Position numbers and translations under genes: made by a program. Under the pieces are notes generated by a model. That model had not been told where the DNA came from and ran no database searches. It saw only the letters and a list, made by a program, of their open reading frames with translations. A stretch of DNA of 64,000 nucleotides from Anaerolinea thermolimosa (GTDB lineage: Bacteria > Chloroflexota > Anaerolineae > Anaerolineales > Anaerolineaceae), in the NCBI RefSeq assembly GCF_001050195.2, contig NZ_DF967965.1, positions 612,744 to 676,743 on the forward strand. The letters run 5' to 3'. Of this stretch, positions 14,491 to 28,749 are shown piece after piece (within the stretch, counting starts at the first letter, position 1; every line of letters starts with the position of its first letter).

Positions 14491-14596
14491 CGTACTATCC
14501 CATCGCGATTCCGTTTCATTTGAGAGTGTCTCTCTGTAATAAGTGAGACGATCAATTGGAGTGGATCATCCAAAAAATTTTTCGGAGGAATGGAAA

Positions 14597-16681
14597 ATGA
14601 AGAAATCTCTTAACCGACGCGATTTCATGAAAATCGCTGGGTTAACTGGTCTGGGGATAGCTGCAGTAGCCTGTCAGCCAGCTCAGAAGACTGAAGCGCC
14701 CACCGAAGCACCCAAGCCAACCAATACTGTTCCGGCCATCCAGGCACAGGAAGCGTCTCCTACGCCGGCTCCTACCCTGGCTGAAGCGAAATACAAACAG
14801 GCCCCCATGCTGGATTCAATGGATCTGCCTCCGGTTGAGGAGCGGATTTCGGCCAACCCGCTGGTGACCAAACCCCGCGAATCGATTGGAAAATACGGTG
14901 GCACGCTGCGCACCGTGACCTGGTGGCCCGAAGCCGGGAATATTCAGCTATATATTTCGGAGCCACCGATCAAATGGAAGGATGATCTGACCGGCTACGA
15001 ACCTGCCCTGGCTGAAGCCTATGAATGGTCGGATGATGGCTTGAGCTTTACCTTGCATCTGCGCAAGGGTGTGCGCTGGTCAGACGGTGAGCCGTACACC
15101 ACCGAGGACTGGAAGTTCTGGTGGGAAGATATGGCCAAGAACGAGGATGTGAAGTGGAACACCGTTCCGGGCTATATGCGCAAGAAAGATGGCTCGCCGA
15201 TTGATATCGAATTCCCCGACGAGTACACCATGGTATGGAAGTCGGATCAGCCGCTCTGGATTGCTCCATATTACCTGGCACAGGGTTACTGGGAGTTCGC
15301 CAGCCCGAAGATGAAGCCGGCGCACTACCTGAAGAAATTCCATCCGAAATACGACTCCACGAAGAAGTATGAAGACCTTGAAAAGGCCGATAAATACTAC
15401 ATGAACCCGGACTTCCCGACGGTGCTTTCTTATCATTGTGTGGAAGTCTCGCAGGATGGCAAGCGTTATAAGTGGGGTCGTAACCCGTATTACTACCGGG
15501 TTGATACCGAAGGCAACCAGCTCCCCTACATTGATTATATTGACATCGAAATCGTCGAGGACGAGCAGGCGCGCATTCTGGCACTCACCTCGGGCAAGTA
15601 TGATATTTCCTTCCGCGGCGGTGGCAGCCCGAATGATCTGCCGTTCTTTGACGAGAATGCTGACAAGGCCGGTTATCGCTTACTGGAAGGCTGGATGAAC
15701 GGTGCGGGCGCCTGGCCTGGTTACATGGTAAATCAGTACTTTGTTGAAGGTGGGAAGTATTACGAAGATGATACTCCCGAACATGCCAAGGAAATCCGCG
15801 ATCTGCTCCGCGACAAGCGTTTCCGCAAGGCCCTTTCCTGGGGTGTTGACCGCCAGCGCGTGATTGATGTGGCCTGGAATGGCATTGGCGAACCCAAAGC
15901 CGCCACCATCAGCCCGCAGTCATGGCACTTTGCCAGCCCAGAAGGGCAGGAAGTCTATAAGAAATGGGCCGCAGCCGATGCGCAGTTCGATGTGGAAGCC
16001 GCCAATAAGGCCCTGGATGAAATTGGCATGAAGAAAGGTGCCGATGGCTTCCGCACTCTGCCCAGTGGCAAACCCTTCACCATGGTGGTGATTGTCTCTG
16101 ACTGGGGTGGTAGTCTCAAGGTTCAGACTGACGCAGCAGCTGAGGTCAAAGACCAGTGGGAGAAGAACCTGGGCATCAAAGTTGAGATTCAAAACCTGCA
16201 GGGTCAGCCCAACCTCGACACCCTCACCAACGAAGGCCAGTACATGCTTCGCGGTGCACACATTTCGGAGATCGATATCTGGACTTACCCGGACTGGATC
16301 TTCCCGATTGTGAATCGCTACATGTTCCCGTTGGAAGGCCGTTACTGGGCCAAGGGTAAAGAAACCTGCAAGGCTCCCGCTGATAAACCTTACGACTGCG
16401 GCGTCAAGCCCGAACCCGACAGCCCCGCTGCCAAACTGCAGGCGCTGTATGAAAAAGGAATGGCGACAAAGACCGTAGATGAACGCCACAAGGTCGTTTG
16501 GGAAGCCATCCAGGTGATCATCGACGAAGGTCCATTCGTGATCGGTATCAGCGGTGATCAGCGTATGCCCGTCATTGCCAACAAGAAGCTCAAGAACATT
16601 CTGGATTACGGCGTGGTTGGCCCGTGGGCGCCCTGCACTCCCGGAAACCAGGTGCCGGCACAGTGGTACTTCGAAGAGTAA
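14597..16681 (+). CDS. family 5 solute-binding lipoprotein of a Dpp/Opp-type ABC importer
   Basis: Captures peptides or oligosaccharides outside the cell for the permeases encoded next. The 694-aa protein has a twin-arginine motif (RRDFMK, residues 6-11) and a lipobox-like AVAC, so it is probably exported folded and lipid-anchored. A low-complexity Pro/Thr/Ala linker follows, then the family 5 binding fold (YEWSDDGLSFTLHLRKGVRWSDG near the start). I chose ATG 14597 with GGAGGA at 14584 because the Tat signal then begins correctly; an upstream in-frame ATG at 14543 has no ribosome site. In related thermophiles such proteins also bind oligosaccharides, so the substrate is open. Confidence 0.88.
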   Translation: MKKSLNRRDFMKIAGLTGLGIAAVACQPAQKTEAPTEAPKPTNTVPAIQAQEASPTPAPTLAEAKYKQAPMLDSMDLPPVEERISANPLVTKPRESIGKYGGTLRTVTWWPEAGNIQLYISEPPIKWKDDLTGYEPALAEAYEWSDDGLSFTLHLRKGVRWSDGEPYTTEDWKFWWEDMAKNEDVKWNTVPGYMRKKDGSPIDIEFPDEYTMVWKSDQPLWIAPYYLAQGYWEFASPKMKPAHYLKKFHPKYDSTKKYEDLEKADKYYMNPDFPTVLSYHCVEVSQDGKRYKWGRNPYYYRVDTEGNQLPYIDYIDIEIVEDEQARILALTSGKYDISFRGGGSPNDLPFFDENADKAGYRLLEGWMNGAGAWPGYMVNQYFVEGGKYYEDDTPEHAKEIRDLLRDKRFRKALSWGVDRQRVIDVAWNGIGEPKAATISPQSWHFASPEGQEVYKKWAAADAQFDVEAANKALDEIGMKKGADGFRTLPSGKPFTMVVIVSDWGGSLKVQTDAAAEVKDQWEKNLGIKVEIQNLQGQPNLDTLTNEGQYMLRGAHISEIDIWTYPDWIFPIVNRYMFPLEGRYWAKGKETCKAPADKPYDCGVKPEPDSPAAKLQALYEKGMATKTVDERHKVVWEAIQVIIDEGPFVIGISGDQRMPVIANKKLKNILDYGVVGPWAPCTPGNQVPAQWYFEE

Positions 16682-16707
16682 TCTGGCATAACGTGGTTTG
16701 ACCTGAA

Positions 16708-16736
16708 TGTGGCGGGCGGAATCTCCGCCCGCCACA
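16708..16736 (+). promoter_or_regulatory. strong GC-rich hairpin between binding-protein and permease genes
   Basis: A perfect 13-bp stem (16708-16720 with 16724-16736, loop ATC) lies between the stop of the binding-protein gene and the first permease. No T-run follows. It probably protects the upstream mRNA or limits read-through, so that binding protein is made in excess of permease, as known for malE-malF type junctions. Confidence 0.75.
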
Positions 16737-16757
16737 TAAGATATTAAGGAGTGGCCT

Positions 16758-17744
16758 ATGGTCAACTATATTCTGCGAAGGCTTGGCTATGCTGTCATCA
16801 TGATTGTTCTGGTTTCCTTTGTCGGGTTCTGTATTATTAAATTGCCACCGGGAGATTTCCTTACCCAGAAGCTCGAACAACTGCGCGCGCGGGGTGACCG
16901 GAGTGCTGAGAGTCAGATCGAAGCACTGCGTGCGAAATATGGCCTTGACCGCCCTTTTATGGTGCAATATACCACCTGGGCGGTGAACTTTCTTAAAGGT
17001 GATTTTGGAGAGTCTTTTCAGTATGAGCGCCCGGTCAAAGACCTGCTTGGTGAGCGGTTGACCATGACCGTTGTCCTGGCGCTGGCAACGCTCATCATTA
17101 CCTGGGTCCTGGCCATTCCACTCGGGGTATATTCGGCTGTTCGGCAATATTCGCTGGGCGATCAGATCATTACGACGATCAGTTTTATCGGAATTGGCAT
17201 TCCCGGGTTCCTTCTGGCGTTGATCATCTTATTCTTTGCCATTGTCGTGCTCAATCAGGATGTACTGGGATTATTCTCGAAAGAATATATCGATGCACCG
17301 TGGAGTGTTGGGAAAGTCATCGATTTATTAAAACATTTGTGGATTCCAGCGCTGATCAGTGCGGTTACGGGGACCGGTGGGTTAATCCGTATCATGCGCG
17401 GTAACCTGCTGGAGACGATGGGGCAACCTTTTGTGGAGGCCGCACGGGCGCGTGGTTTGCGCAACCGGGATGTGATCTGGAAACATGCTGTGCGTGTGGC
17501 AATTAATCCATTAATTGTGATTCTGGGCTCCGAAGCACTGCCCGGCATTATTGGGGGGAATGCACTGGTTTCCATTGTCCTCAACCTTCCTACCATTGGC
17601 CCTCTCTTTGTAGACTCGCTGCGCAGACTGGATATGTATCTGGCTGGTACGTGCATTGTGTTTTTCACAATCCTTCTGCTGGTGGGGAACCTGCTGGCAG
17701 ATCTGGTGCTTGCCTGGGTTGATCCCCGGATTCGTTTAGAGTGA
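16758..17744 (+). CDS. Dpp/Opp-type ABC permease, DppB-like
   Basis: A 328-aa inner-membrane permease of the BPD_transp_1 family that pairs with the next gene to form the translocation path. The N-terminal helix (about residues 9-30) is followed by an external loop with GLDRPFMVQY and GDFGESFQYERPV, typical of DppB/OppB. Several further helices and the cytoplasmic ATPase-contact loop (VEAARARGLRNRDVIWKHAVR) follow. It starts at ATG 16758 with AAGGAG upstream. Second gene of the operon. Confidence 0.92.
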   Translation: MVNYILRRLGYAVIMIVLVSFVGFCIIKLPPGDFLTQKLEQLRARGDRSAESQIEALRAKYGLDRPFMVQYTTWAVNFLKGDFGESFQYERPVKDLLGERLTMTVVLALATLIITWVLAIPLGVYSAVRQYSLGDQIITTISFIGIGIPGFLLALIILFFAIVVLNQDVLGLFSKEYIDAPWSVGKVIDLLKHLWIPALISAVTGTGGLIRIMRGNLLETMGQPFVEAARARGLRNRDVIWKHAVRVAINPLIVILGSEALPGIIGGNALVSIVLNLPTIGPLFVDSLRRLDMYLAGTCIVFFTILLLVGNLLADLVLAWVDPRIRLE

Positions 17745-17759
17745 AAGGGAGAATGAGAG

Positions 17760-18896
17760 ATGGCTGCAGCGACACTTGATTCAAGCCAAAAAGGAAAGCA
17801 GAAACAAGTCAGCCAGAGTTACTGGAGCCTGGTCTGGTGGAAGTTTAGAAAAAATCGCATTGCGGTGATCGGCGGATTCATCTTGCTGGTGATGTACGTT
17901 TTGATCTGTATCTTTGCTGAATTTATTGCCCCGTACGATCTGGAACACAAAACCAATTATCCTGAAGCGCGTCCTCAGACCATCCGCTTCCTCGATTCGG
18001 AGGGGAATTTCTCGATCCGACCCTTCGTCTATGGCCTGGAGAAGAAGATTGACGATAAACTGCGGAAACGTGTCTTTGTTGAAAACCCTCAGGTGAAATA
18101 CCCTATTCACTTCTTTGTCAAAGGGGATCCTTATAAACTGCTCGGCTTTATCCCCGGGGATATTCACCTGTTCGGGGTGCAGTCCGATAATCCTGAGGCA
18201 TATATTTTTATCATGGGCACCGACTCGAATGGCCGGGACTTCTTCAGCCGGATTATCTTCGGCGGACGGCTATCGATGTTGATCGGCCTGCTGGGGCAGT
18301 TCCTGACAATTATCTTCGGGAGTATCCTGGGGGCTATTTCAGGGTATTATGGCGGGGCAGTGGATATGTTCGTGCAGCGCTTTACTGAGTTTCTATCGGC
18401 CTTCCCGGATATTCCACTATTTATGGCGCTGGCTGCCGCGATTCCGAAATTCTGGTCTCCCATTGCAGTGTACTTTATGCTCACGATCATTCTGGCTTTT
18501 GTGCGCTGGGGCGGGTTGGCGCGTCAGGTGCGCGGGTTGATCCTTTCTTTGCGCGAGCGGGAATATGTGCTGGCAGCCCGCAGTGCAGGCGCATCAGATT
18601 CCCGGATTATGTTCCGGCATCTGCTCCCTGGCACGATGAGCCATGTCATCGTGATTGCGACCCTGTCAATCCCGGGGATGATCCTTTCAGAAACGGCCTT
18701 AAGCTGGCTTGGGCTGGGCCTGCGTCCTCCCTTGACCAGCTGGGGGGTTTTACTTCAGGAGGCCGGTACAGTGTATGCCATTCGCTTTACCCCATGGCAA
18801 TTATGGACGGTGGTTTTCATCCTGATCACCATTATGGCCTACAATATGCTCGGCGATGGCCTGCGTGATGCCATGGACCCGTACAGCGCGCGATAG
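17760..18896 (+). CDS. Dpp/Opp-type ABC permease, DppC-like, with large external loop
   Basis: The second permease of the importer, 378 aa, longer than the roughly 300 aa of DppC. The extra length is a soluble loop between the first membrane helix (about residues 38-60) and the GTDSNGRDFFSRIIFGGR segment, about 100 residues. Such loops are known in some family members. The coupling loop is visible (LREREYVLAARSAGASDSRIMFRHLLP). It starts at ATG 17760, 15 bp after the DppB-like gene, and is followed at 9 bp by the first ATPase. Confidence 0.92.
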   Translation: MAAATLDSSQKGKQKQVSQSYWSLVWWKFRKNRIAVIGGFILLVMYVLICIFAEFIAPYDLEHKTNYPEARPQTIRFLDSEGNFSIRPFVYGLEKKIDDKLRKRVFVENPQVKYPIHFFVKGDPYKLLGFIPGDIHLFGVQSDNPEAYIFIMGTDSNGRDFFSRIIFGGRLSMLIGLLGQFLTIIFGSILGAISGYYGGAVDMFVQRFTEFLSAFPDIPLFMALAAAIPKFWSPIAVYFMLTIILAFVRWGGLARQVRGLILSLREREYVLAARSAGASDSRIMFRHLLPGTMSHVIVIATLSIPGMILSETALSWLGLGLRPPLTSWGVLLQEAGTVYAIRFTPWQLWTVVFILITIMAYNMLGDGLRDAMDPYSAR

Positions 18897-18905
18897 GAGG
18901 TTGCA

Positions 18906-19979
18906 ATGGAAGACGGGAATAAATTTATTGAAGTACGAGACCTCCATGTTGAATTTGATGTTCGGGCGGGTATCATCAAGGCTGTGGATGGAATGTGGCT
19001 GGAAATTAACCGCGGCCAGACGGTGGGCGTCATTGGCGAAAGTGGTTGTGGAAAATCCGTCACTGCCCGGGCAATCATGAACATGGTTCCCAAACCCGGG
19101 AAGATCTCCGGTGGAGAGATTTTGTATCATCGGAAGAACAAAGATACCGGTGAAGTGACCACGATCGATATTACCAAACTCGACCCGGATGGAGAGGTGA
19201 TTCGGCAGATTCGGGGAGGGGAAATCGGGATGATCTTTCAGGAGCCGATGAGTTCTCTGACACCCGTGTATACTGCCGGAACGCATATCTATGAGGCAGT
19301 TTCGTTGCACCGCCTGGTGCCGGTTAAAAAAGTGGGCGACCAGATGGTTGAAACGATTATGACGTACCGGAAAGTGACAAAGCAGGAAGCCCGCGAGATC
19401 GCCATTGATATGTTGCGCAGGGTGGGCATTCCTAAACCGGACCAGCGGGTTGATAGCTACCCCCATCAGCTTTCAGGGGGGCAGCGGCAGCGGGTGATGA
19501 TCGCCATTGCCCTATCGTGTGAGCCCGAAATGCTCATCGCTGATGAACCTACTACGGCTCTGGATGTGTCGATTGAGGCGCAAATTCTCGATGTAATGCG
19601 TGAATTACAACACTCGGTAAACATGGCCATCATGTTCATCACCCACAACCTGGGTGTGATTGCCGAAATGGCAGAGGAAATCGTGGTCATGTATATGGGA
19701 AAGCAGGTAGAACGGGCCAAAGTGGTCGATCTCTTTTACGATCCCAAACACCCATACACCCAGGCTCTGTTGCGCTCTATTCCGAAGATCGGAAAGCGGG
19801 GTGAACGCCTGGCGACTATTGAAGGAATGGTGCCTGACCCATTCCATTTGCCCACCGGCTGTGTTTTTCATCCCCGTTGCCCGATGTTTATGCCCGGGAA
19901 GTGTGACCGGATTGTCCCGACCAATAAGGAAGTCGCCTCGAATCACTGGGCGAGCTGCCTGCTTTACGAGGAGGTGTAA
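18906..19979 (+). CDS. Dpp/Opp-type ABC ATPase, DppD-like
   Basis: Hydrolyses ATP to drive import. The 357-aa protein has Walker A GESGCGKS (about residue 40), Q-loop [12 protein letters not shown], signature LSGGQRQRV and Walker [13 protein letters not shown]. The C-terminal oligopeptide-transporter extension includes [16 protein letters not shown], whose Cys pattern in related proteins binds an iron-sulfur cluster; here that is inference. It partners with the next ATPase as a heterodimer. SD AGGAGG lies upstream of ATG 18906. Confidence 0.95.
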
Positions 19980-19982
19980 CCC

Positions 19983-21041
19983 ATGACTGCCCCTGAAGCA
20001 ACTGCAACCTCCACTCCTGCGGTGGACGAGAGTATTCTTCTCAACGTGCGTGGCCTGAAGAAATACTTCCCCATTCAAAAAGGTCTGTTGCGCCGGACGG
20101 TCGGTTACGTGAAGGCTGTGGATGATGTGACCTTTTTTGTGCGTGAGGGTGAAACGCTGGGCCTGGTCGGTGAATCAGGTTGCGGCAAGACCACTGCCGG
20201 GCGTACCATAATTCGCCTTTATGAGCCGACGGGGGGTGAAATTTACTTTAAATCTACCGTGCTGGGTAATAGCGCTCCTAAAATGGTCAACCTGTTGGAA
20301 CTGGATAAGGCGCAGATGAAACTGGTACGTCAGGAAATCTCCATGATTTTTCAGGACCCGGTCAACTCTCTAAACCCGCGCATGTCGGTGGGTGACATTA
20401 TTGCTGAACCGATGATGATTCATGGGAAGTACGGGCCAGATAGTGAAGGCGTGATCGTTGCCCTGTTAGAGCGGGTAGGTTTACGCGCAGATCACCTGCG
20501 CCGATACCCGCACGAATTTTCAGGCGGCCAGCGCCAGCGGATTGGGATTGCGCGTGCGCTTTCACTTAATCCGCGTCTGGTGATTTGCGATGAACCGGTC
20601 TCTGCCCTGGACGTATCCATTCAGGCCCAGACGTTGAACCTGCTGGAAGATTTGCAGCATGACTTTAACCTGGCATATATCTTCGTGGCACATGACCTGA
20701 GCGTGGTGCAACATATCTCGGATCGGGTCGCAGTGATGTATGTGGGAAAAATCGTGGAGATGGCCGACTCCGAAATGTTGTATAACAACCCTCTCCATCC
20801 CTATACTGAGGCATTGCTTTCTTCGGTGCCCAAGCCTGACCCAAAGTATAAATCTGACCGGATCATCATGCAGGGCGATGTGGCTGACCCGTCGAACCCG
20901 CCATCAGGTTGTTACTTCCACCCTCGCTGTCGGTATGCAGTAGATCTGTGCAAGCAGAAATCGCCTGAATTTCGCGAGTTGAAGAAGGATCATTTTGTGG
21001 CCTGTCACCGGGCAGAAGAATTAAAGCTGCGTGGGATTTAA
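19983..21041 (+). CDS. Dpp/Opp-type ABC ATPase, DppF-like
   Basis: The second ATPase of the importer, 352 aa. It has the DppF/OppF hallmark [25 protein letters not shown] near the start, Walker [10 protein letters not shown], signature [10 protein letters not shown], Walker [15 protein letters not shown], and the C-terminal [16 protein letters not shown] segment. The ATG follows the upstream stop by only 3 bases, so the two ATPases are translationally coupled. Last of the five core transporter genes. Confidence 0.95.
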
Positions 21042-21062
21042 GCACATCTCAAGGAGGTGAGC

Positions 21063-21407
21063 ATGTCTCAGCAGGGGCCTTCGGGAAGGCGCTCGCGCTG
21101 GGTGCGTGGGTTACTTATTCTTCTCGGGGCAATTACGTGGCTGTTTACGGCCGGGTTGGGCCTGGTAGAAATTTACCTCAGCCGACAAATGGTGGTACGC
21201 ATCTGGGGACGGTTCTCAACCGACGTACCCATGGCTACGCTTGCAGGGCACGTCATGGTTGTGATTATGGCTCTGGCGTGGTTGACTTATGTGATCTTTG
21301 CCGGAGAAATTGGGCTGAAACGCATTGCCAGTAACGGAGGTTGGACTATTTTTGCCTGGGCTGTAGCGATTGAATTGCTGATCCTGATTCTATATTTCCT
21401 TGTGTGA
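21063..21407 (+). CDS. small three-helix membrane protein of unknown function
   Basis: Not recognised. The 114-aa protein has a basic N terminus and three hydrophobic helices (about residues 17-42, 57-80 and 91-114). I chose ATG 21063 rather than GTG 21057, because the GTG lies inside the perfect ribosome site AAGGAGGTGA (21051-21060). It starts 21 bp after the ATPase gene, so it is likely the last gene of the transporter operon. It could be an accessory subunit or an unrelated rider; nothing in the sequence decides. Confidence 0.65.
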   Translation: MSQQGPSGRRSRWVRGLLILLGAITWLFTAGLGLVEIYLSRQMVVRIWGRFSTDVPMATLAGHVMVVIMALAWLTYVIFAGEIGLKRIASNGGWTIFAWAVAIELLILILYFLV

Positions 21408-21493: not shown

Positions 21494-21928
21494 ATGACCA
21501 ACCTGGAAGAAATCATTAAATTTTTAAATAATGTACCTTTGTTTAAACCTTTGAACCGACGGCAGCTCGAACTGCTGGCCAAACGTGTTCTGGACAGGGA
21601 TTACCCCGCTGGAGCGACAATTGTTACTCAGGGAAAGGGTGGAGAAGGGTTTTTTGTCGTCAAATCCGGCAAGGTGGAGGTGGTCCGCGAACGGGCTGAT
21701 GGAACCAAGTCGGTGGTCAACACCCTGAGCGATGGCGACTTCTTCGGCGAAATGGCCTTGCTGGATGACGGCCCGCGTACGGCAACCTGCATCGCTGTGG
21801 AACCTACCAAATGTTATGTGCTCCCGCGCTGGGATTTTGTGGCGGTTTTACGAGAAGAACCGGATATGGCGGTGGTCATTCTGGAAGAAATGGCCAAACG
21901 CTTCCGCGCCGCCCTCGACGTTCTCTAA
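21494..21928 (+). CDS. cyclic nucleotide-binding domain protein
   Basis: A 144-aa protein made almost entirely of one cNMP-binding domain, without the helix-turn-helix of CRP. The phosphate-binding cassette looks intact: GEMAL (residues 85-89) and RTA (95-97), with the Glu and Arg that normally contact ribose and cyclic phosphate. Glycine-rich turns KGGEGFFVVKSGKV precede it. It may act as a cNMP-dependent partner of another protein. The next gene, 62 bp on, is a class III cyclase-like protein, which suggests a signalling pair. SD AGAGGAG lies before ATG 21494. Confidence 0.85.
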   Translation: MTNLEEIIKFLNNVPLFKPLNRRQLELLAKRVLDRDYPAGATIVTQGKGGEGFFVVKSGKVEVVRERADGTKSVVNTLSDGDFFGEMALLDDGPRTATCIAVEPTKCYVLPRWDFVAVLREEPDMAVVILEEMAKRFRAALDVL

Positions 21929-21949
21929 ACCTGGGTTCTGGAGGATTAA

Positions 21950-21981
21950 AAGGGCGCTTTGGGGATCACTGAAGCGCCCTT
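21950..21981 (+). terminator. hairpin between the cNMP-binding and cyclase-like genes
   Basis: AAGGGCGCTT (21950-21959) pairs perfectly with AAGCGCCCTT (21972-21981), with a 12-nt loop. Only a weak T-rich stretch follows (GATTGTGTT). It ends 9 bases before the next start codon, so it may act as a partial terminator or may shape translation of the cyclase-like gene. Confidence 0.6.
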
Positions 21982-21990
21982 GATTGTGTT

Positions 21991-24900
21991 ATGACCTGCC
22001 CAAAATGCGGATTTGAAAGCCCCCATGGCATGCGCTTCTGTGGTAAGTGCGGTGCACCCCTTACGCATCCTTGCCCGGCCTGCGGTTTTCATAACCCCCT
22101 CGACTTTGCCTTTTGCGGCATGTGCGGTATCCGTCTTCCTCGAGAGAGTCTTGAGCCTTTCCATGGCGAGGGAACGCCTGTGGGAGGGAATGTGGATGAA
22201 GGCCGGTTAAGGCCTGGCGGGGCATCGATGCCGTTGGAAGGGGAACGACGGGTGGTGACGGTGGTGGTCGCGGATATTACCGGATCGACCGACTTGATGG
22301 AGCACATTGGGAACGAAGCCTGGGTAGAGATCATGAACCGCATTCTGCTTGCCCTTGAAGCGGAGATCTACCGTTATGGGGGTGTAGTTGATCAATTCCG
22401 CGGGGATGGTCTGGTGGCTTTCTTTGGTGCAGATGTTGCCTATGAGGATGACCCTGAACGGGCAGTTCTGGCCGGCCTGGCCATGCAAGAGGCCATTGCC
22501 CGGTTTAATGCTGATCTCGCCGCGGGAGATCACGCGGGAATACGCCTGAGAGTGGGGATCAATACGGGAGAAGTGATCGTTGCCAGTATTGGAGATGCCC
22601 GCCAGCACCGGGAGGATACGGCCATGGGCGTGGCCATTGCCCTCGCTGCCCGGCTGGAGAGCGCCGCTGAGCCGGGCACGGTTCTGGTCAGTGAGAGTAC
22701 ATACCGACAATGTGAGCCGCAGTTCACCTGGGAAAAGCTGGGAGAAATAACCGCCAAGGGGTTTTCACAGCCAATGGCGGTGTACCGACCGCTTGCCGCA
22801 CGGCTGGATTCAGAAAGTATGGTGCAGCTTGAGATTTTTGGCAACGCCATTCCTCTGGTTGGCCGTGATGAAGAGCTGGACATTCTTAAACAACACGTTG
22901 AGCTGTTGAAGCTGGGTCAGGGAGGGGTGGTTTTCCTGACGGGCGAGGTGGGGATTGGAAAGCAAGCTCTGATCAGCGAGACGCGGCAGTATTTCTTGCG
23001 GCAGGATGCTCTCATAGCCAATACCCGGGGAATGGACGAGGCGGTTCCTGAGAGTTTGCAATGGATTTTTGGGCGTTGCCGGTCGTTCAGCCAGAGCTGG
23101 CCGTTTTCTCTATGGTTTGACCTGATTCACAACTGGCTGGGGGTGTATTCGGGTCAGAACCCGGAAGAAATTTATGCCCGGCTAAAGGAACGGTGCTTTG
23201 CGTTATGGGGTGAACGTTATCATCAATTTTTCCCCTACCTCGCCGAGCTGTTACGTTTACCTCTGGAAGGAGAGTATCTGGAAAAGGTTCGTTTCCTCAG
23301 CGCCGAGGCATTACGGATCAAAATAGGCGAAACCGTACAGGAGTGGCTGGAAAGCCTGACGCAACAAAAACCGCTGGTGGTGGTACTCTCTGACCTTGAG
23401 TTCGCCGATCCATCTTCCCTTCAGCTTGCCCGAAACGTGGCGGGGCTGGCTTCGCGCCGTCCTCTTTTGTTTCTCATGCTTTATCGCAGTGGGGCCGGGC
23501 AGGAACTGGAGAGCTTCGTTGCGGCTCTGAAAGGGGCGTTGCCGGGAATCACGGAGGAGGTTTTCTTAGAACCGCTCCGAGAGGCAGATATGCACCAGTT
23601 GATTTTTTATCTGGTGGGTGAACATACACTGCCCGAGGAAACCAGGCGATTACTGGTTAAAAATTCCGAGGGGAATCCCTCATACATCGTTGAAATTCTA
23701 CGTTCCCTTCTCGAAAAGAAGATATTGATTCGTGACGCTGAAAGTGGAGAATGGCGTTTAAGCCGACCGGTGAAAGCGCAGGATTTGCAGGGAAACCTGA
23801 ACCGTCTGGTTCAGGCGCGCATTGATCGGTTGGACCTCAACGAGCGCCAGGTTATTCAGATGGCTTCGGTGATCGGGAATGTGTTCTGGTCTAATGTGCT
23901 CCAATGGATGGTGGGAGAACAGTTCCTGGTGAAGGAACCCCTGCAGGCATTGACGAAGGCGCAATTGATTGAACGGCGGGGGCGTCATCCTGAACTGGGG
24001 GCTGAATACAGCTTCCGCACCGATTTAATTCATGACGTGGTTTATGAGAGTCTGCTGAAACATCAACGTGAAGCCATGCATCTACGGGTGGCTTCGATCC
24101 TGGAGGAATTTGTTCAAACGGAAGGTGGCATTGAGCATCAGGCGCTGATTGCCTATCATTACCGGCAGGCTGGAGAAACGCAAAAAGAATTGTTTTATGT
24201 TACCTGGGCGGCGGAAAAAGCCCGGGAAGTCTATGCGGTGGAGGAAGCCTTCCACCATTACAACCGGGCGCTGGAACTTCTGGATCAACTGGAACAGAAA
24301 ACTTCAGATGCAGATCGGCTGGAAGCTCTTCTCTCTCAACGGTTTGAGGTGTTAAACGGACGGCTGGCCCTGCGATACCTGACGGGAGACTTTGACCATG
24401 CCACGGCAGATGCCCGGGCGCTTTTGGAGATCGCAGATCGATTGCACGAGCAGCCGATCTGGAAAATTGACGCGTTGTTGAATCAACCGGCAGTTTTACA
24501 GGCCGATACCTGGGACGTTGTTCAAGAGGCGCTGGAGATGGTTGAGCAGGCACTGGTGCTCTCCCGGCAGATTGAAGACCGGTATCGCGAAATGTTTGCG
24601 CTGATGGCCAAATCACGCCTGATGTTTCTGGTCAATAATCTCGAAGCTTTCAACGTGACCCAGGAGGCTCTTGCTCTGGCCAGAGAACTGGGAGATCCCA
24701 CTACCCAGCTCTCGCTATTGATCGAACTTTCCAATGCGTATGGAATGGAAAACCCGGAATTGAGCCGAAAATATCTTGACGAGGCGCTGACTCTGCGGGA
24801 CAAGATCTCTGATAAACGCATTTTGCTGGATTTGCTTTCAGCCCTTGGTGAGTTGCAGGAGCGGGAAGGGAATTATTACCGCCTGCTGACGGATTTTATT

Positions 24901-25671
24901 GGTAAACGGTTAGAAATTTGCCGGGAAATTGGTGACCGGCTCTCGGAAGGTTTTGTCCTGATGTATCATGCGCAGGTGGAAGGTCTATACCTTGGTGACT
25001 ATCAGGCGGCGCTGGAACGGGTAACCCAGGCCCTGAAGCTGACCGAGAAAGTATCCGGGAGCCTGTTCCCCATGCTGAGGATTGCTCAGCTTCAGGGATG
25101 CCTGGGGATGTTTGATGAAGGGTTTGAAGTATTACGCCGTGCTGAGCCTCTGTGCAGGCAAAGCATACTCAAGATCGGAGAGGCCGGGCGGTTGCTGGTG
25201 AGTATGATTCTTTACAACCAGCGGGGCCGGTTTGAGGATCATCAGGCTGTGCTTGAGCTGGCCGAAGAGGTTAAGCAACTGGCTGATGAACAACGGGTAT
25301 CGCGTCAGTATAAAATGGCCGCGTGTTGTGAAGCATCAGAAGCGCATATTCGTTTGGGGTTGGCCCTTGATGATGAAGCCAAACGTTCCGCTCATTTGCG
25401 AAAAGCGTTGGATGAAAGCACAACTGCCCTGGAAATTTACCGCACGTATGGGTTTGTTCAAATCATCGAATGTTCTTCTGAGGAAGTACTCTTTCGGCAT
25501 GGGCAGGCGCTTTCTGCCAATGGATATGAAGAAGAGGCCGGTGTATTTTTCTCACAGGCCAGGGAGGAATTACTGCGGAAATACGATTTCATCCCTCCCG
25601 ACAGCCCCTATCGCCGAACCTTCCTGGAAAATATCCAGGTTCATCGGCGCATCATGCAAAAAGGAAGATGA
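21991..25671 (+). CDS. zinc-ribbon, class III cyclase-like, NTPase and TPR protein
   Basis: A 1226-aa soluble multi-domain protein. Residues 1-50 hold paired zinc-ribbon motifs (CPKCG, CGKCG, CPACG, CGMCG). A class III nucleotide cyclase homology domain follows at about 85-270, with both metal-binding Asp residues (Asp95 in ADITGSTD, Asp139 in FRGDG). The purine-specifying Asp is Val214 and the transition-state Asn is Ala217, although Arg221 is kept. Residues about 285-620 resemble an AAA/NTPase module, but its Walker A reads GEVGIGKQ instead of GK(S/T). The rest is helical TPR-like repeats. Catalysis is therefore doubtful; a scaffold or sensor role is possible. It has no ribosome site, and a hairpin lies just upstream. 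Confidence 0.85.
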   Translation: MTCPKCGFESPHGMRFCGKCGAPLTHPCPACGFHNPLDFAFCGMCGIRLPRESLEPFHGEGTPVGGNVDEGRLRPGGASMPLEGERRVVTVVVADITGSTDLMEHIGNEAWVEIMNRILLALEAEIYRYGGVVDQFRGDGLVAFFGADVAYEDDPERAVLAGLAMQEAIARFNADLAAGDHAGIRLRVGINTGEVIVASIGDARQHREDTAMGVAIALAARLESAAEPGTVLVSESTYRQCEPQFTWEKLGEITAKGFSQPMAVYRPLAARLDSESMVQLEIFGNAIPLVGRDEELDILKQHVELLKLGQGGVVFLTGEVGIGKQALISETRQYFLRQDALIANTRGMDEAVPESLQWIFGRCRSFSQSWPFSLWFDLIHNWLGVYSGQNPEEIYARLKERCFALWGERYHQFFPYLAELLRLPLEGEYLEKVRFLSAEALRIKIGETVQEWLESLTQQKPLVVVLSDLEFADPSSLQLARNVAGLASRRPLLFLMLYRSGAGQELESFVAALKGALPGITEEVFLEPLREADMHQLIFYLVGEHTLPEETRRLLVKNSEGNPSYIVEILRSLLEKKILIRDAESGEWRLSRPVKAQDLQGNLNRLVQARIDRLDLNERQVIQMASVIGNVFWSNVLQWMVGEQFLVKEPLQALTKAQLIERRGRHPELGAEYSFRTDLIHDVVYESLLKHQREAMHLRVASILEEFVQTEGGIEHQALIAYHYRQAGETQKELFYVTWAAEKAREVYAVEEAFHHYNRALELLDQLEQKTSDADRLEALLSQRFEVLNGRLALRYLTGDFDHATADARALLEIADRLHEQPIWKIDALLNQPAVLQADTWDVVQEALEMVEQALVLSRQIEDRYREMFALMAKSRLMFLVNNLEAFNVTQEALALARELGDPTTQLSLLIELSNAYGMENPELSRKYLDEALTLRDKISDKRILLDLLSALGELQEREGNYYRLLTDFIGKRLEICREIGDRLSEGFVLMYHAQVEGLYLGDYQAALERVTQALKLTEKVSGSLFPMLRIAQLQGCLGMFDEGFEVLRRAEPLCRQSILKIGEAGRLLVSMILYNQRGRFEDHQAVLELAEEVKQLADEQRVSRQYKMAACCEASEAHIRLGLALDDEAKRSAHLRKALDESTTALEIYRTYGFVQIIECSSEEVLFRHGQALSANGYEEEAGVFFSQAREELLRKYDFIPPDSPYRRTFLENIQVHRRIMQKGR

Positions 25672-25766: not shown

Positions 25767-26990
25767 GTGAGCACGACGTTCTGGACTGTCCCGACCCAAA
25801 ACCTAAAAAACCTGAACAAACACGCGATCATTGATCTGATCCGCTTCACTTCGGGTGGAATCTCTCGTGTTGAAATTGCACGAAGGATGGGGCTGACGCG
25901 TGCCGCGGTCAGCGCGATTGTGGATGATTTAATGAGCATTGGGTTGGTGCGGGAGACCGAAGGCAGTTATCCGAGTGGCAGACGCCCGATTGTCCTGGAA
26001 ATTAACCCCGATCTCGGGCATGTGATTGGCATCGATATGGGGGCCTCGCATGTCATGCTGATCCTGGCTGATTTTTCGGGTCGGCAACTGCATGAGATCG
26101 AAGTTCCCCTGGATATCAACGAAGGGCCGTCGATTTGCCTGGCGCGGGTGGCCGAACTGGTTGACCAGCTTTTAAAAGAAGCGGGGATGAGCATGTCGCA
26201 GATCAGCGCGGTGGGGGTTGGGGTTCCGGGGCCGATTGTTCAGAAAGAGGGGATGGTCAGCGGCCCGCCAATCATGCCGGGGTGGGACAGGTATCCCATT
26301 CGTGACCATTTGCAAGAATTGTGGAAGGTGCCGGTTTCTCTCAACAATGATGCTGAACTTGGAGCGGTGGGAGAATGGGCGTATGGTGCCGGACGTGGTG
26401 AACATAACCTGGCGTATATCAAAGTGGGCACGGGCATTGGCGCGGGTTTACTGCTGGAAGGGCAAATTTACCGCGGTTCGACGGGCTGTGCGGGGGAAAT
26501 TGGGCACATTACCATTGATGAGAATGGGCCACTGTGCACCTGCGGTAACCGCGGTTGCCTGGAGGCGATTGCGGGGGGCGCAGCGATTGCGCGCAAGGCC
26601 ATGGAGGCGGTCAGGATGGGTCAGCGCACCCAGCTAGCAGAAATGGTTCACAACGGGAAGTTGACCGTTGCCGATGTGATGAATGCGGCGCGGCACGGAG
26701 ATCATCTGGCTCAACGGATTACGGCGGAGGCGGGCATGCACCTGGGAACCGCCATAGCAAATATTGTCAATTTATTTAACCCCAGTATGGTTGTGATCGG
26801 CGGATCGGTGGGGCAGATTGGCGATCTGCTGCTTGAGCCTATTCGTCTGACGGTGCAACGGCGGAGCCTGCTGGTGGCTTCACGGAATGTACGGATCACC
26901 GCCGCCTTGCTGGGCAAGCATTCTGTGGCTATCGGAGCGGTTGTTGTTGCCCTCTCGATTGCTTTGCATCAGATCGCCGATAAGAATTAG
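25767..26990 (+). CDS. ROK-family regulator (NagC/XylR type)
   Basis: A 407-aa sugar-responsive repressor-like protein. The N-terminal winged helix-turn-helix (ISRVEIARRMGLTRAAVSAIV, about residues 33-53) is followed by the ROK sugar-kinase-like domain. Visible motifs are GIDMGASH, GVGVPGPI and the zinc-binding CTCGNRGCLEA. NagC/XylR relatives sense sugars or phosphosugars and repress uptake or catabolic genes. Its targets are not evident, since the nearest downstream gene is a nucleoside kinase. Start GTG 25767 with GAGGAG at 25753. Some ROK proteins with a helix-turn-helix retain kinase activity, so that remains possible. Confidence 0.88.
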   Translation: MSTTFWTVPTQNLKNLNKHAIIDLIRFTSGGISRVEIARRMGLTRAAVSAIVDDLMSIGLVRETEGSYPSGRRPIVLEINPDLGHVIGIDMGASHVMLILADFSGRQLHEIEVPLDINEGPSICLARVAELVDQLLKEAGMSMSQISAVGVGVPGPIVQKEGMVSGPPIMPGWDRYPIRDHLQELWKVPVSLNNDAELGAVGEWAYGAGRGEHNLAYIKVGTGIGAGLLLEGQIYRGSTGCAGEIGHITIDENGPLCTCGNRGCLEAIAGGAAIARKAMEAVRMGQRTQLAEMVHNGKLTVADVMNAARHGDHLAQRITAEAGMHLGTAIANIVNLFNPSMVVIGGSVGQIGDLLLEPIRLTVQRRSLLVASRNVRITAALLGKHSVAIGAVVVALSIALHQIADKN

Positions 26991-27027
26991 GGGTAAGTTT
27001 AACTTTTCTTTCTCTGTAAGGTGTCCA

Positions 27028-28749
27028 TTGGTAGAAAATGCATTTGAACTGGTTCAACCCCGACCGAAGGTGGAAATTCATCTGCCGGATGGGCGGATAT
27101 TGTCCGGGCCGCGGGGAGCCTCGCTGGAGCAATTTCTCCGTAGCCTGCCGGAGTGGCAGGATACCCCCATTGTGGGGGCGGTGGTCAACCATGAACTGCG
27201 CGAGTTAACCTACCCGGTTATGATGGAAGCGCGGGTGATACCCGTCACCACTGCAGATGCCGATGGGGCACGCATTTACCGACGTTCATTAGTCTTTTTG
27301 CTTGAAGTGGCTTTTGAGGAACTGTTCGGTGAGGCGGTGCTCTCGGTGGATCATTCGGTTTCTTCAGGGGGATTTTTTTGCCAGGTGCACGGTCGCCCCG
27401 GATTGAGCGATGATGAGCTGGACAGGTTAAAGCGGCACATGCAGAAGCTGGTTGAGGAAGATATTCCTTTTGAGCGCTCCGTAGTGCCGTTGAGTGAGGC
27501 GATTGACCTGTTTACGGCAAAGAAGATGACCGAAAAGGCTCATCTGTTAAAATTTCGCCAGAAAGAAAGCCTGGTATTGTATTCGATCAACGGCCACCGC
27601 GATTATCATCATGGGTATATGGTGCCATCGACGGGGTATTTACGCTGGTTTGATCTGCGCCGGCTCAACCATGAGGGATTTGTTTTGCAATTCCCGCGGC
27701 GGCATGCCCCGCGCGAGTTGCTTCCGATGCCTGATTATCCCAAGCTGTTGACGAGCTTCCGCCAGTATGGGAGCTGGTTGAAGCGCCTGGGCATTGAGAA
27801 TGTGGGAGCACTCAATGAGGCAATTGCTTCAGGGCGTATTCGCGAAATTATTCTGGTGGCAGAAGCCCTTCACGAACAGCAGGTGGCGGAAATTGCCCGG
27901 ATGATCATGGAAAGAAGCCGTTCGGCGCGGATTGTGCTTATAGCGGGGCCATCATCTTCTGCCAAGACCACCACCTTGAAGCGCCTGGCAGTTCAACTGC
28001 TGGCTCAGGGAATCTCCCCCCTGCCCCTAGAGATGGACAATTACTTTGTGGATCGGGAGATGACCCCGAAGGATGAGAATGGACAGTATGATTTTGAGCG
28101 GTTGGAGGCTTTGAATACCAAACTTTTGCAGGAACATCTCAAACGGTTGATTGCCGGGGAAGAGGTGCAATTGCCCCACTATGATTTCAAGCTTGGGCGG
28201 AGCAGGCCGGGAGAGGTAGTTCGGCTCGAGAAAGATCAAATGATCATTCTGGAAGGCATCCATGGCATGAACCCCCGTTTGCTGCCCGATTTTGCTCCGG
28301 AGGAAACCTTCCGCATTTATGTTTCGTGCTTAACCCAGTTAAATCTTGACCGCCACAACCGAATTTCCACCACCGATAGCCGGTTGTTACGGCGGATTGT
28401 GCGTGACGCACGTGAGCGGGGCTATTCAGCCCAGGCCACCATCAGCCGGTGGGAATCGGTGCGGCGCGGTGAGAAACGTCATATTTTCCCCTATCAGGAA
28501 AATGCGGATGTCTTTTTTAACTCGGCGCTGGTTTATGAGCTTTCGGCATTAAAAAAATTTGCCGAACCTCTTTTACGGCAGGTGCCTTTTGGCAACCCGG
28601 AGTATATCGAAGCCAAACGTCTGCTGGCTTTTTTAGACTGGTTCTTACCGGTTGATGTTGACCTTATCCCTGATAATTCTCTGTTGAGAGAGTTTATTGG
28701 CGGCTCGATTTTACAGGAATTCCGTCTCTGGGAGAAACCTTTAGATTAA
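27028..28749 (+). CDS. nucleoside (uridine) kinase fused to a TGS-like N terminus
   Basis: A 573-aa member of the long uridine kinase-like family: a TGS/threonyl-tRNA-synthetase-like N terminus (about residues 1-180), a linker, then a P-loop kinase from about 300. The kinase part shows MDNYFVDREMTPKDENG, QYDFERLEAL and ILEGIHGMNP. The P-loop reads GPSSSAKT (307-314), with Ala312 where the second conserved Gly is usual. Family members phosphorylate nucleosides such as uridine, but the true substrate of the long form is not well known. I chose TTG 27028, preceded by AAGG at 27018; the open frame extends upstream but overlaps the ROK gene without a ribosome site. Confidence 0.75.
   Translation: MVENAFELVQPRPKVEIHLPDGRILSGPRGASLEQFLRSLPEWQDTPIVGAVVNHELRELTYPVMMEARVIPVTTADADGARIYRRSLVFLLEVAFEELFGEAVLSVDHSVSSGGFFCQVHGRPGLSDDELDRLKRHMQKLVEEDIPFERSVVPLSEAIDLFTAKKMTEKAHLLKFRQKESLVLYSINGHRDYHHGYMVPSTGYLRWFDLRRLNHEGFVLQFPRRHAPRELLPMPDYPKLLTSFRQYGSWLKRLGIENVGALNEAIASGRIREIILVAEALHEQQVAEIARMIMERSRSARIVLIAGPSSSAKTTTLKRLAVQLLAQGISPLPLEMDNYFVDREMTPKDENGQYDFERLEALNTKLLQEHLKRLIAGEEVQLPHYDFKLGRSRPGEVVRLEKDQMIILEGIHGMNPRLLPDFAPEETFRIYVSCLTQLNLDRHNRISTTDSRLLRRIVRDARERGYSAQATISRWESVRRGEKRHIFPYQENADVFFNSALVYELSALKKFAEPLLRQVPFGNPEYIEAKRLLAFLDWFLPVDVDLIPDNSLLREFIGGSILQEFRLWEKPLD

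Follow-up and report, generated by a model that had tools for sequence, protein, structure and literature searches.

The question raised by this locus is what becomes of a class III nucleotide cyclase when part of its canonical active site is replaced, and whether the small protein encoded beside it is its partner. The locus lies in a 64,000-nucleotide stretch of the Anaerolinea thermolimosa genome (contig NZ_DF967965.1, positions 612,744 to 676,743 of the forward strand), the whole of which is called the window, and consists of two genes on one strand, with 62 nucleotides between the stop codon of the first and the start of the second. An earlier note, made from the sequence alone, had recognised at 21494–25671 a cyclic nucleoside monophosphate (cNMP)-binding protein beside a cyclase-like protein, and Pfam confirms both open reading frames (ORFs) and their domains. 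The answer favoured here, with a probability of about one half, is that an active cyclase of altered specificity and a dedicated receptor would together form a two-protein cyclic-nucleotide signalling module. The components of the pair are as follows.

21494–21928 (+): stand-alone cyclic-nucleotide-binding protein, putative receptor, 144 residues (Pfam PF00027, cNMP_binding, E 6.9e-27)
21746–21784 (+): phosphate-binding cassette of the receptor, residues 85–97, GEMALLDDGPRTA
21991–25671 (+): double zinc ribbon, class III cyclase, AAA_16/STAND-type NTPase and TPR-like protein, 1226 residues (Pfam DZR, Guanylate_cyc at E 6.5e-17 and AAA_16; PADLOC)

A conserved two-gene module of Chloroflexota

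Within Chloroflexota the pair recurs as a conserved module of two genes. Of 400 genomes drawn from the order, 16 carry the focal cyclase (the type found in the window) and 13 the receptor, all 13 receptor genomes being among the 16 (Fisher p 6e-22, uncorrected for relatedness); the 13 genomes with both span seven family codes, and in six of them the two genes are on different contigs or far apart, including G212, where the receptor gene lies 5' of the start of a cyclase gene at a contig end. When 400 genomes were drawn from the phylum, the cyclase and receptor searches named the same four, two of them new. These searches are draws rather than censuses, in which at most two cyclase and ten receptor candidates were scored per genome, and the counts of 16, 13 and 4 follow score gaps judged by eye: for the order, at least 735 bits against 652 for the next cyclase, and E of 1e-50 or lower against 2.8e-29 (G145) for the next receptor; for the phylum, at least 232 bits against 141.7, where 23 of the 400 genomes passed 1e-35. 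One order-level genome, G071, was counted on the C-terminal part of the protein, its cyclase domain not being on the contig. No genome of the draws has the receptor without the focal protein, though other cyclases are present in many genomes of the family. Five of six further genomes, representing focal loci without a receptor or with short upstream DNA and possibly overlapping with the draws, also carry the receptor.

Adjacency is similarly widespread. The receptor gene stands directly upstream of the cyclase gene, on the same strand and within about 260 nucleotides, in 17 of the 26 focal loci for which sufficient upstream DNA was available (at least 600 nucleotides, or a receptor seen in less; 6 of 32 loci were left out), and in L105 it directly precedes the first of two tandem copies. 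That the two are chance neighbours without shared function could be argued from the terminator-like hairpin between them and from the genomes in which they are not adjacent, yet their co-occurrence in 13/13 order-level and 4/4 phylum-level receptor genomes, in several families and with unlinked cases included, makes this explanation highly improbable. The earlier note had supposed that the proteins work together and had named co-conservation as the check, and unlinked genes in relatives as the refutation; co-occurrence and adjacency strongly support the partnership, and no such general lack of linkage was seen.

The smaller protein is the putative receptor. Its score against cNMP_binding is 93.7 bits (Pfam cut-off 27.5), the cassette residues G85, E86, R95, T96 and A97 are invariant in all 18 aligned sequences, in keeping with the intact-looking pocket described before, and the predicted fold (predicted local distance difference test, pLDDT, 86) is matched by Foldseek to CRP and PKG domains. 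No other Pfam family was found in its 144 residues at E 0.001, and no output domain.

The altered cyclase site

The cyclase domain and the residues that bear on its activity are placed as follows.

22243–22794 (+): class III cyclase domain, residues 85–268 (Pfam; model pLDDT 88)
22267–22269 (+): V93, base-pocket position two before the first metal Asp; Phe in the outgroup
22273–22275 (+): D95, first metal Asp, kept (alignment)
22393–22401 (+): Q135, at the canonical Lys position, to R137, two before the second metal Asp; a clade-fixed pair
22405–22407 (+): D139, second metal Asp, kept (alignment)
22618–22620 (+): T210, substrate-specifying position, class IIIb Thr, kept (alignment to 3r5g and 1wc0)
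22639–22641 (+): A217, replacing the transition-state Asn (focal/outgroup alignment)
22651–22653 (+): R221, transition-state Arg, kept (focal/outgroup alignment)

In the model the domain has an intact class III fold, with CyaB (3r5g; Z 27.5, root-mean-square deviation 2.1 over 186 residues) and CyaC (1wc0–1wc4; Z 26.4 for 1wc1) as its best matches in the PDB. Four of the six canonical residues, D95, D139, T210 and R221, are kept, while Lys has become Q135 and Asn has become A217. The earlier note had placed D95, D139 and R221 rightly and had identified Ala217 as the transition-state Asn position, but its choice of Val214 as the purine-specifying residue is ruled out by alignment to 3r5g, 1wc0 and 2w01: the aligned residue is Arg in CyaB (3r5g), Pro in CyaC (1wc0/1wc1) and Ala in Cya2 (2w01), and position 214 therefore does not specify the purine. 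The residue at the base-specifying position is T210, which precedes the Asn position by seven; CyaB and CyaC likewise have Thr there. Three further changes had gone unremarked, namely Lys to Q135, the clade-fixed R137 and the lost Phe at 93. The spacings, 44 residues between the metal Asp residues, 4 from Gln to Asp, and 7 and 4 around A217, are equal to those of CyaC. The names of the adenine-pocket residues in mammalian cyclases, F889, I940 and W1020, served as labels for pocket positions in the comparison below; a literature search for these names gave no paper.

How widely these changes are shared was read from 32 focal proteins and 76 relatives outside the clade (the outgroup). An alignment-based scan of genome contigs gave 487 relatives, of which the best 80 were kept, a single-sequence scan of genome contigs having found no close relatives. 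The counts leave out L080 and L144, which have no cyclase domain, and seven duplicate loci; the 76 rows contain L042 and L069, which are one locus counted twice, as well as three more pairs whose domains are identical. Asn at 217 is present in 0/32 focal proteins (Ala in 23, Thr in 8, Ser in 1) against 75/76 in the outgroup, and Phe at 93 in 0/31 readable focal proteins, where the position is aliphatic, against 74/76. Conversely, Arg at 137 is found in 31/32 focal proteins and in no outgroup protein (0/76), and Gln at 135 in 31/32 against 17/76. Asp at 214 is absent from the clade (0/32, against 70/76), Thr at 210 is frequent on both sides (30/32 and 52/76), and Arg221 is present in all 108 proteins (32/32 and 76/76). 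Wherever a focal row aligns at these positions, the metal Asp residues are retained (D95 in 30/30, D139 in 31/31), the single exceptions at 95, 135, 137 and 139 all being L041, the first part of which fails to align.

In a tree of 105 domains, built by a quick method with columns 93, 135, 137, 214 and 217 removed and with L041, L054 and L069 left out, 30 focal rows fall on one side of a branch with a Shimodaira–Hasegawa-like approximate likelihood-ratio support (SH-aLRT) of 98. R137 requires one change on this tree and the loss of Asn two; the residue changes are thus common to a supported clade and are therefore not due to chance. The second loss, in L115 (Armatimonadetes), is an independent replacement of the transition-state Asn by Thr outside the focal clade.

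The pattern of conservation bears on whether the site is decaying. Among 38 domain positions at which at least 90% of the outgroup share one residue, seven are lost in the clade (93, 107, 108, 148, 209, 214 and 217); two of these, 93 and 217, are part of the nucleotide site, 209 is the neighbour of T210, and 214 falls between that residue and 217, while 107, 108 and 148 are not among the pocket positions known to us. Across 28 full-length proteins, two of them tandem second copies, mean pairwise identity is highest in the cyclase domain (0.64, of six regions compared), followed by the zinc ribbon (0.55), the NTPase, middle and TPR regions (0.41–0.46) and the linker (0.28). A cyclase domain that is better conserved than any other region of the protein is not in decay, and its pocket, judged from sequence, looks rebuilt rather than decayed. 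The earlier note had left two possibilities, an unusual substrate or a binding scaffold, and a rebuilt, undecayed pocket moves the weight towards the first.

The domain also occurs in other settings. In L107 and L121 the altered cyclase domain stands on a different N-terminus (the first 28 residues are without a zinc ribbon) with intact Walker motifs, which suggests that the domain was reused. The domain of L171, from a record titled as a Klebsiella pneumoniae metagenome-assembled genome (MAG), is almost identical to that of L157, a Deltaproteobacteria MAG, and the bin is probably mislabelled. Second cyclase–AAA–TPR genes are found on the same strand near the first, adjoining it in L105, L097 and L109 and about 1.5 kb away in L162, and all of them are without the Asn, which rules out a complementing tandem partner.

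A related proposal is that the protein is a C1-like subunit, giving the metal Asp residues to a heterodimer in which another chain would supply Lys and Asn. Such a half-site would resemble the arrangement of the split-site mammalian cyclases, with metal Asp kept and Lys and Asn lost, and the genome encodes two other cyclases that could be considered as partners. It is nonetheless improbable: R221, a C2-side residue, is invariant, the second copies in L105, L162, L097 and L109 likewise have no Asn, and a conserved second cyclase type beside the module was not found.

The regions around the cyclase domain behave differently from it.

21997–22128 (+): double zinc ribbon, residues 3–46 (Pfam DZR); eight Cys invariant in 7/7 aligned
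22852–23472 (+): AAA_16/STAND-type NTPase module, residues 288–494 (Pfam)
22942–22965 (+): Walker A GEVGIGKQ, S/T replaced by Q; S/T in 27/32 focal and 76/76 outgroup proteins
23389–23394 (+): Walker B S467–D468, first acid replaced by Ser; E/D in 76/76 outgroup and 3/31 readable focal proteins
24331–25656 (+): TPR-like C-terminal region, residues 781–1222 (PADLOC TPR model, best stretch 839–941)

The TPR-like call is that of the PADLOC model, Pfam calling no TPR in the 1226-residue protein at E 0.001. The altered Walker A (GKQ) pointed out before is real in the window but rare: the motif ends in Q or H in four of the 32 focal proteins, the window included, and in N in one more (5/32 in all), the others being mostly GKS, and GKQ or GKH is limited to G000, G001, G003 and G004, whereas the motif reads GKT in G002, from the same genus. 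Loss of the first Walker B acid is far more general, affecting 28/31 readable focal proteins, and the canonical STAND/AAA_16 set of Walker A GK[S/T] plus two Walker B acids is thus absent from the window protein, which has GKQ and S467–D468. This loss of NTPase motifs, set against a cyclase site kept in the same proteins, suggests that the NTPase is relaxed and the cyclase site is not; that the metal Asp residues and Arg persist in every aligning focal row while the first Walker B acid disappears is counted in favour of an active cyclase.

Known cyclases and the weighing of explanations

The description of the protein as lacking key catalytic residues holds in so far as Lys and Asn, two of the six, are changed, but as a premise it is too strong, the purine residue having been misplaced and active enzymes with changes at these positions being on record (PMC4215837, PMC3770947, PMC4452763; these papers, and PMC11224242 below, are represented by excerpts). 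Ma1120 of Mycobacterium avium, in which Ala occurs naturally at the Asn position, is active as an adenylyl cyclase, and its A164N mutant is less active; it shares with the window protein this Ala, the kept Arg and the spacing of 7 and 4 from the substrate position through Ala to Arg, but it keeps Lys and Asp, and the excerpted text describes no zinc ribbon, AAA or TPR (PMC4215837). XC_0250 of Xanthomonas campestris is an active guanylate cyclase without Asn and Arg, and the adjacent XC_0249 is its cyclic GMP receptor, the two being a tested pair. The resemblance to the window pair, which is that of a class III cyclase with a TPR-containing region and without canonical transition-state residues beside a cNMP-binding protein, is limited by the missing Arg, by the fusion of the receptor to GGDEF and by the lack, in the excerpted description, of a zinc ribbon or AAA (PMC3770947). 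The Mclx proteins, of the Rv0386 type, also join a cyclase domain to an AAA/NB-ARC module; Mclx1 (Rv0386) is an active adenylate cyclase with 20% guanylate cyclase side activity, and Mclx2 and Mclx3 are without Asn. They end, however, in a LuxR helix-turn-helix, and the excerpts report no cNMP partner, whereas the window protein has a zinc ribbon and TPR-like regions (PMC4452763). No C-terminal LuxR helix-turn-helix was found in the window protein by the Pfam scan at E 0.001. For each canonical residue that is altered here, an active enzyme offers a counterpart (Ma1120, XC_0250 or Rv0386, the last of which has a Gln–Asn pair).

The class IIIb enzymes CyaB (3r5g), CyaC (1wc0) and Cya2 (2w01) agree with the window domain in fold, metal Asp pair and Arg, and CyaB and CyaC in Thr at the substrate position, yet all three have Asn, CyaB and CyaC have Lys, and none has an Arg two before the second metal Asp. 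A parallel at the base pocket is offered by the cytidylate cyclase EaPycC, in which F100, R142 and Q144 choose CTP and the metal Asp residues are 102 and 146 (PMC11224242). By the equal spacing of 44 residues, these three correspond to positions 93, 135 and 137 here; in the clade Arg and Gln appear in swapped order and Phe is gone. Given the active precedents and these pocket positions, it is unsafe to take the changes for a loss of function, and an active cyclase is favoured over a pseudocyclase.

The same parallel invites the proposal that the pair is a Pycsar-type defence system, with a pyrimidine cyclase and a cyclic-pyrimidine receptor. PADLOC models of PycC and PycTIR do match the two proteins, the Arg/Gln pair of EaPycC at −4/−2 reappears here in reverse, and the two-gene logic of a cyclase with a cyclic-nucleotide-binding-domain (cNBD) receptor is that of PycC/PycTIR (PMC11224242). 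Membership is nevertheless rejected, since the best score of the window domain against the PycC models is 63.4 bits and four control cyclase domains reach 103.6, 92.6, 69.3 and 65.2. Pycsar is further set apart by its effector, Pfam finding no TIR or membrane effector on the 144-residue receptor (no separate transmembrane prediction was made), and by the surroundings, in which no defence genes were recognised and the recurrent neighbours identified are transporters and sugar enzymes (compared with PMC11224242); this explanation is accordingly very unlikely. Nor does the protein belong to the TOMM kinase/cyclase fusion family (TIGR03903), its score being 206.3 bits against a curated cut-off of 705.75. 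Among the papers listed by a literature search on zinc ribbon–cyclase–AAA–TPR proteins or on this pair, judged from titles and abstract openings, none dealt with either.

The most substantial competitor is a pseudocyclase scaffold, in which the domain would bind metal-NTP without cyclising it and act as an NTP sensor or docking module, and the receptor would read cyclic AMP made by other cyclases and act on the large protein. The genome does encode two other class III cyclases, of GAF-PAS and dCache-HAMP types; in both, Asn and Arg are retained, and the canonical Lys is present in one. The receptor, however, follows only the focal protein in the draws, although other cyclases are present in many genomes of the family. 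The loss of Asn in 32/32 and of Lys to Gln in 31/32, the first Walker B acid lost in 28/31 and a receptor without an output domain of its own would all fit a scaffold, and have to be set against a cyclase domain that is the most conserved region of the protein, an R137 newly fixed in its base pocket and the activity of Ma1120 with Ala at the Asn position. A scaffold is given a fair probability, smaller than that of the active cyclase.

On the favoured reading, that of an active cyclase with its own receptor, the large protein would sense some input via its zinc ribbon, NTPase-like and TPR-like regions, and its class IIIb-type cyclase domain would dimerise and bind metal-NTP through D95 and D139. 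The cyclase most likely still makes a cyclic nucleotide, and the base and ribose pocket, rebuilt with an aliphatic 93, Q135, R137, T210, Ala or Thr at 217 and R221, would so confer altered base selectivity or rate. The 144-residue partner would bind the product in its intact pocket and, because it has no output domain, would signal onward through contact with a protein, which may be the large protein itself. The module may control oligosaccharide uptake or use, as its usual genomic site suggests. A bolder and more speculative version, which is regarded as unlikely, is that the clade is a new specificity class, in which Q135/R137, the aliphatic 93 and the small residue at 217 would select a non-adenine base (cytosine or guanine most plausibly) and the stand-alone cNBD would be a private receptor.

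Several observations weigh against the favoured reading. Lys and Asn are replaced together, a combination found in none of the enzymes compared, position 214 drifts freely within the clade, and the NTPase module looks hydrolysis-impaired, like that of a binding module. The PycC scores are no better than those of the controls, so there is no direct sequence sign of pyrimidine use, and the positions of the receptor C-helix that are known to choose the base, aligned by CRP numbering, are A140 and L141 rather than Ser/Thr, Asn or Glu. In 8 of the 26 assessable loci the receptor is not beside the cyclase within the upstream stretch examined; it was not found in three of the 16 cyclase genomes of the order draw (G071, G116 and G153, which are 82–88% complete), nor in one of the six further genomes. 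Finally, the two genes are separated by a hairpin.

21950–21981 (+): terminator-like hairpin in the 62-nucleotide gap, 13-pair stem, 9 nucleotides 5' of the cyclase ATG

Given this hairpin, the two genes may differ in expression level or transcript. Terminator-like sites as a class number 10 in the region against 6.8 ± 2.8 in its shuffles. The best 45-nucleotide hairpin has a z of −2.5 or lower in 13 of 17 linked gaps, L096, L078, L135 and L100 being the exceptions (60 shuffles per gap; gap ends were set by alignment, that of L114 running into coding sequence). The hairpin sequences differ among lineages, and in L038 the stem is kept with changed sequence. A search of Rfam for a known RNA element around the gap gave one chance-level match, below the gathering score. 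In the window a GGAGG stands 5' of the hairpin, and nothing that is clearly a ribosome site is seen between the hairpin and the ATG.

Genomic setting and significance

The neighbouring genes in the window are the following.

14543–21041 (+): Dpp/Opp-type ATP-binding cassette (ABC) transporter, comprising a solute-binding protein, two permeases and two ATPases (Pfam on 3/5 genes)
21057–21407 (+): small hydrophobic protein (hydrophobicity by eye), without Pfam match
25767–26990 (+): ROK-family regulator or kinase (Pfam), present in 4/31 focal loci

Dpp/Opp-type transporters can carry oligosaccharides, and genes related to that of the window adjoin the pair in other genera. Genes for such a transporter, GH13, GH130, Gfo/Idh or ThuA accompany 20 of 25 receptor-bearing loci (13/18 focal and 7/7 fetched for the receptor), or 19/24 without the window's own locus, against 0/60 outgroup loci and 2/13 focal loci without the receptor. 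The reference genes were taken from the window, L172 and L174, and because the identity thresholds were set by the authors and the outgroup is largely drawn from other taxa, this context suggests, without proving, a link to oligosaccharide uptake. The association of the receptor gene with Dpp/Opp transporter, GH13, GH130 and ThuA genes also holds where the cyclase lies elsewhere (L172–L178 and focal loci). Further downstream, an ORF at 26887–28749 with a PRK/uridine-kinase domain has a mechanical start that overlaps the ROK gene, its true start being probably further downstream.

Cyclases without canonical residues are easily dismissed as dead, and one clade is described here that appears to have a rebuilt pocket and a putative receptor occurring only with it in the genomes drawn. 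Both substrate choice in class III cyclases and private cyclic-nucleotide signals outside defence could thus be tested with one domain and one small receptor. If the bolder version is true, a non-defence, possibly non-cyclic-AMP cyclic mononucleotide signal would link to oligosaccharide uptake in Chloroflexota, and the pair would in any case offer these bacteria a candidate carbon-source signalling pathway.

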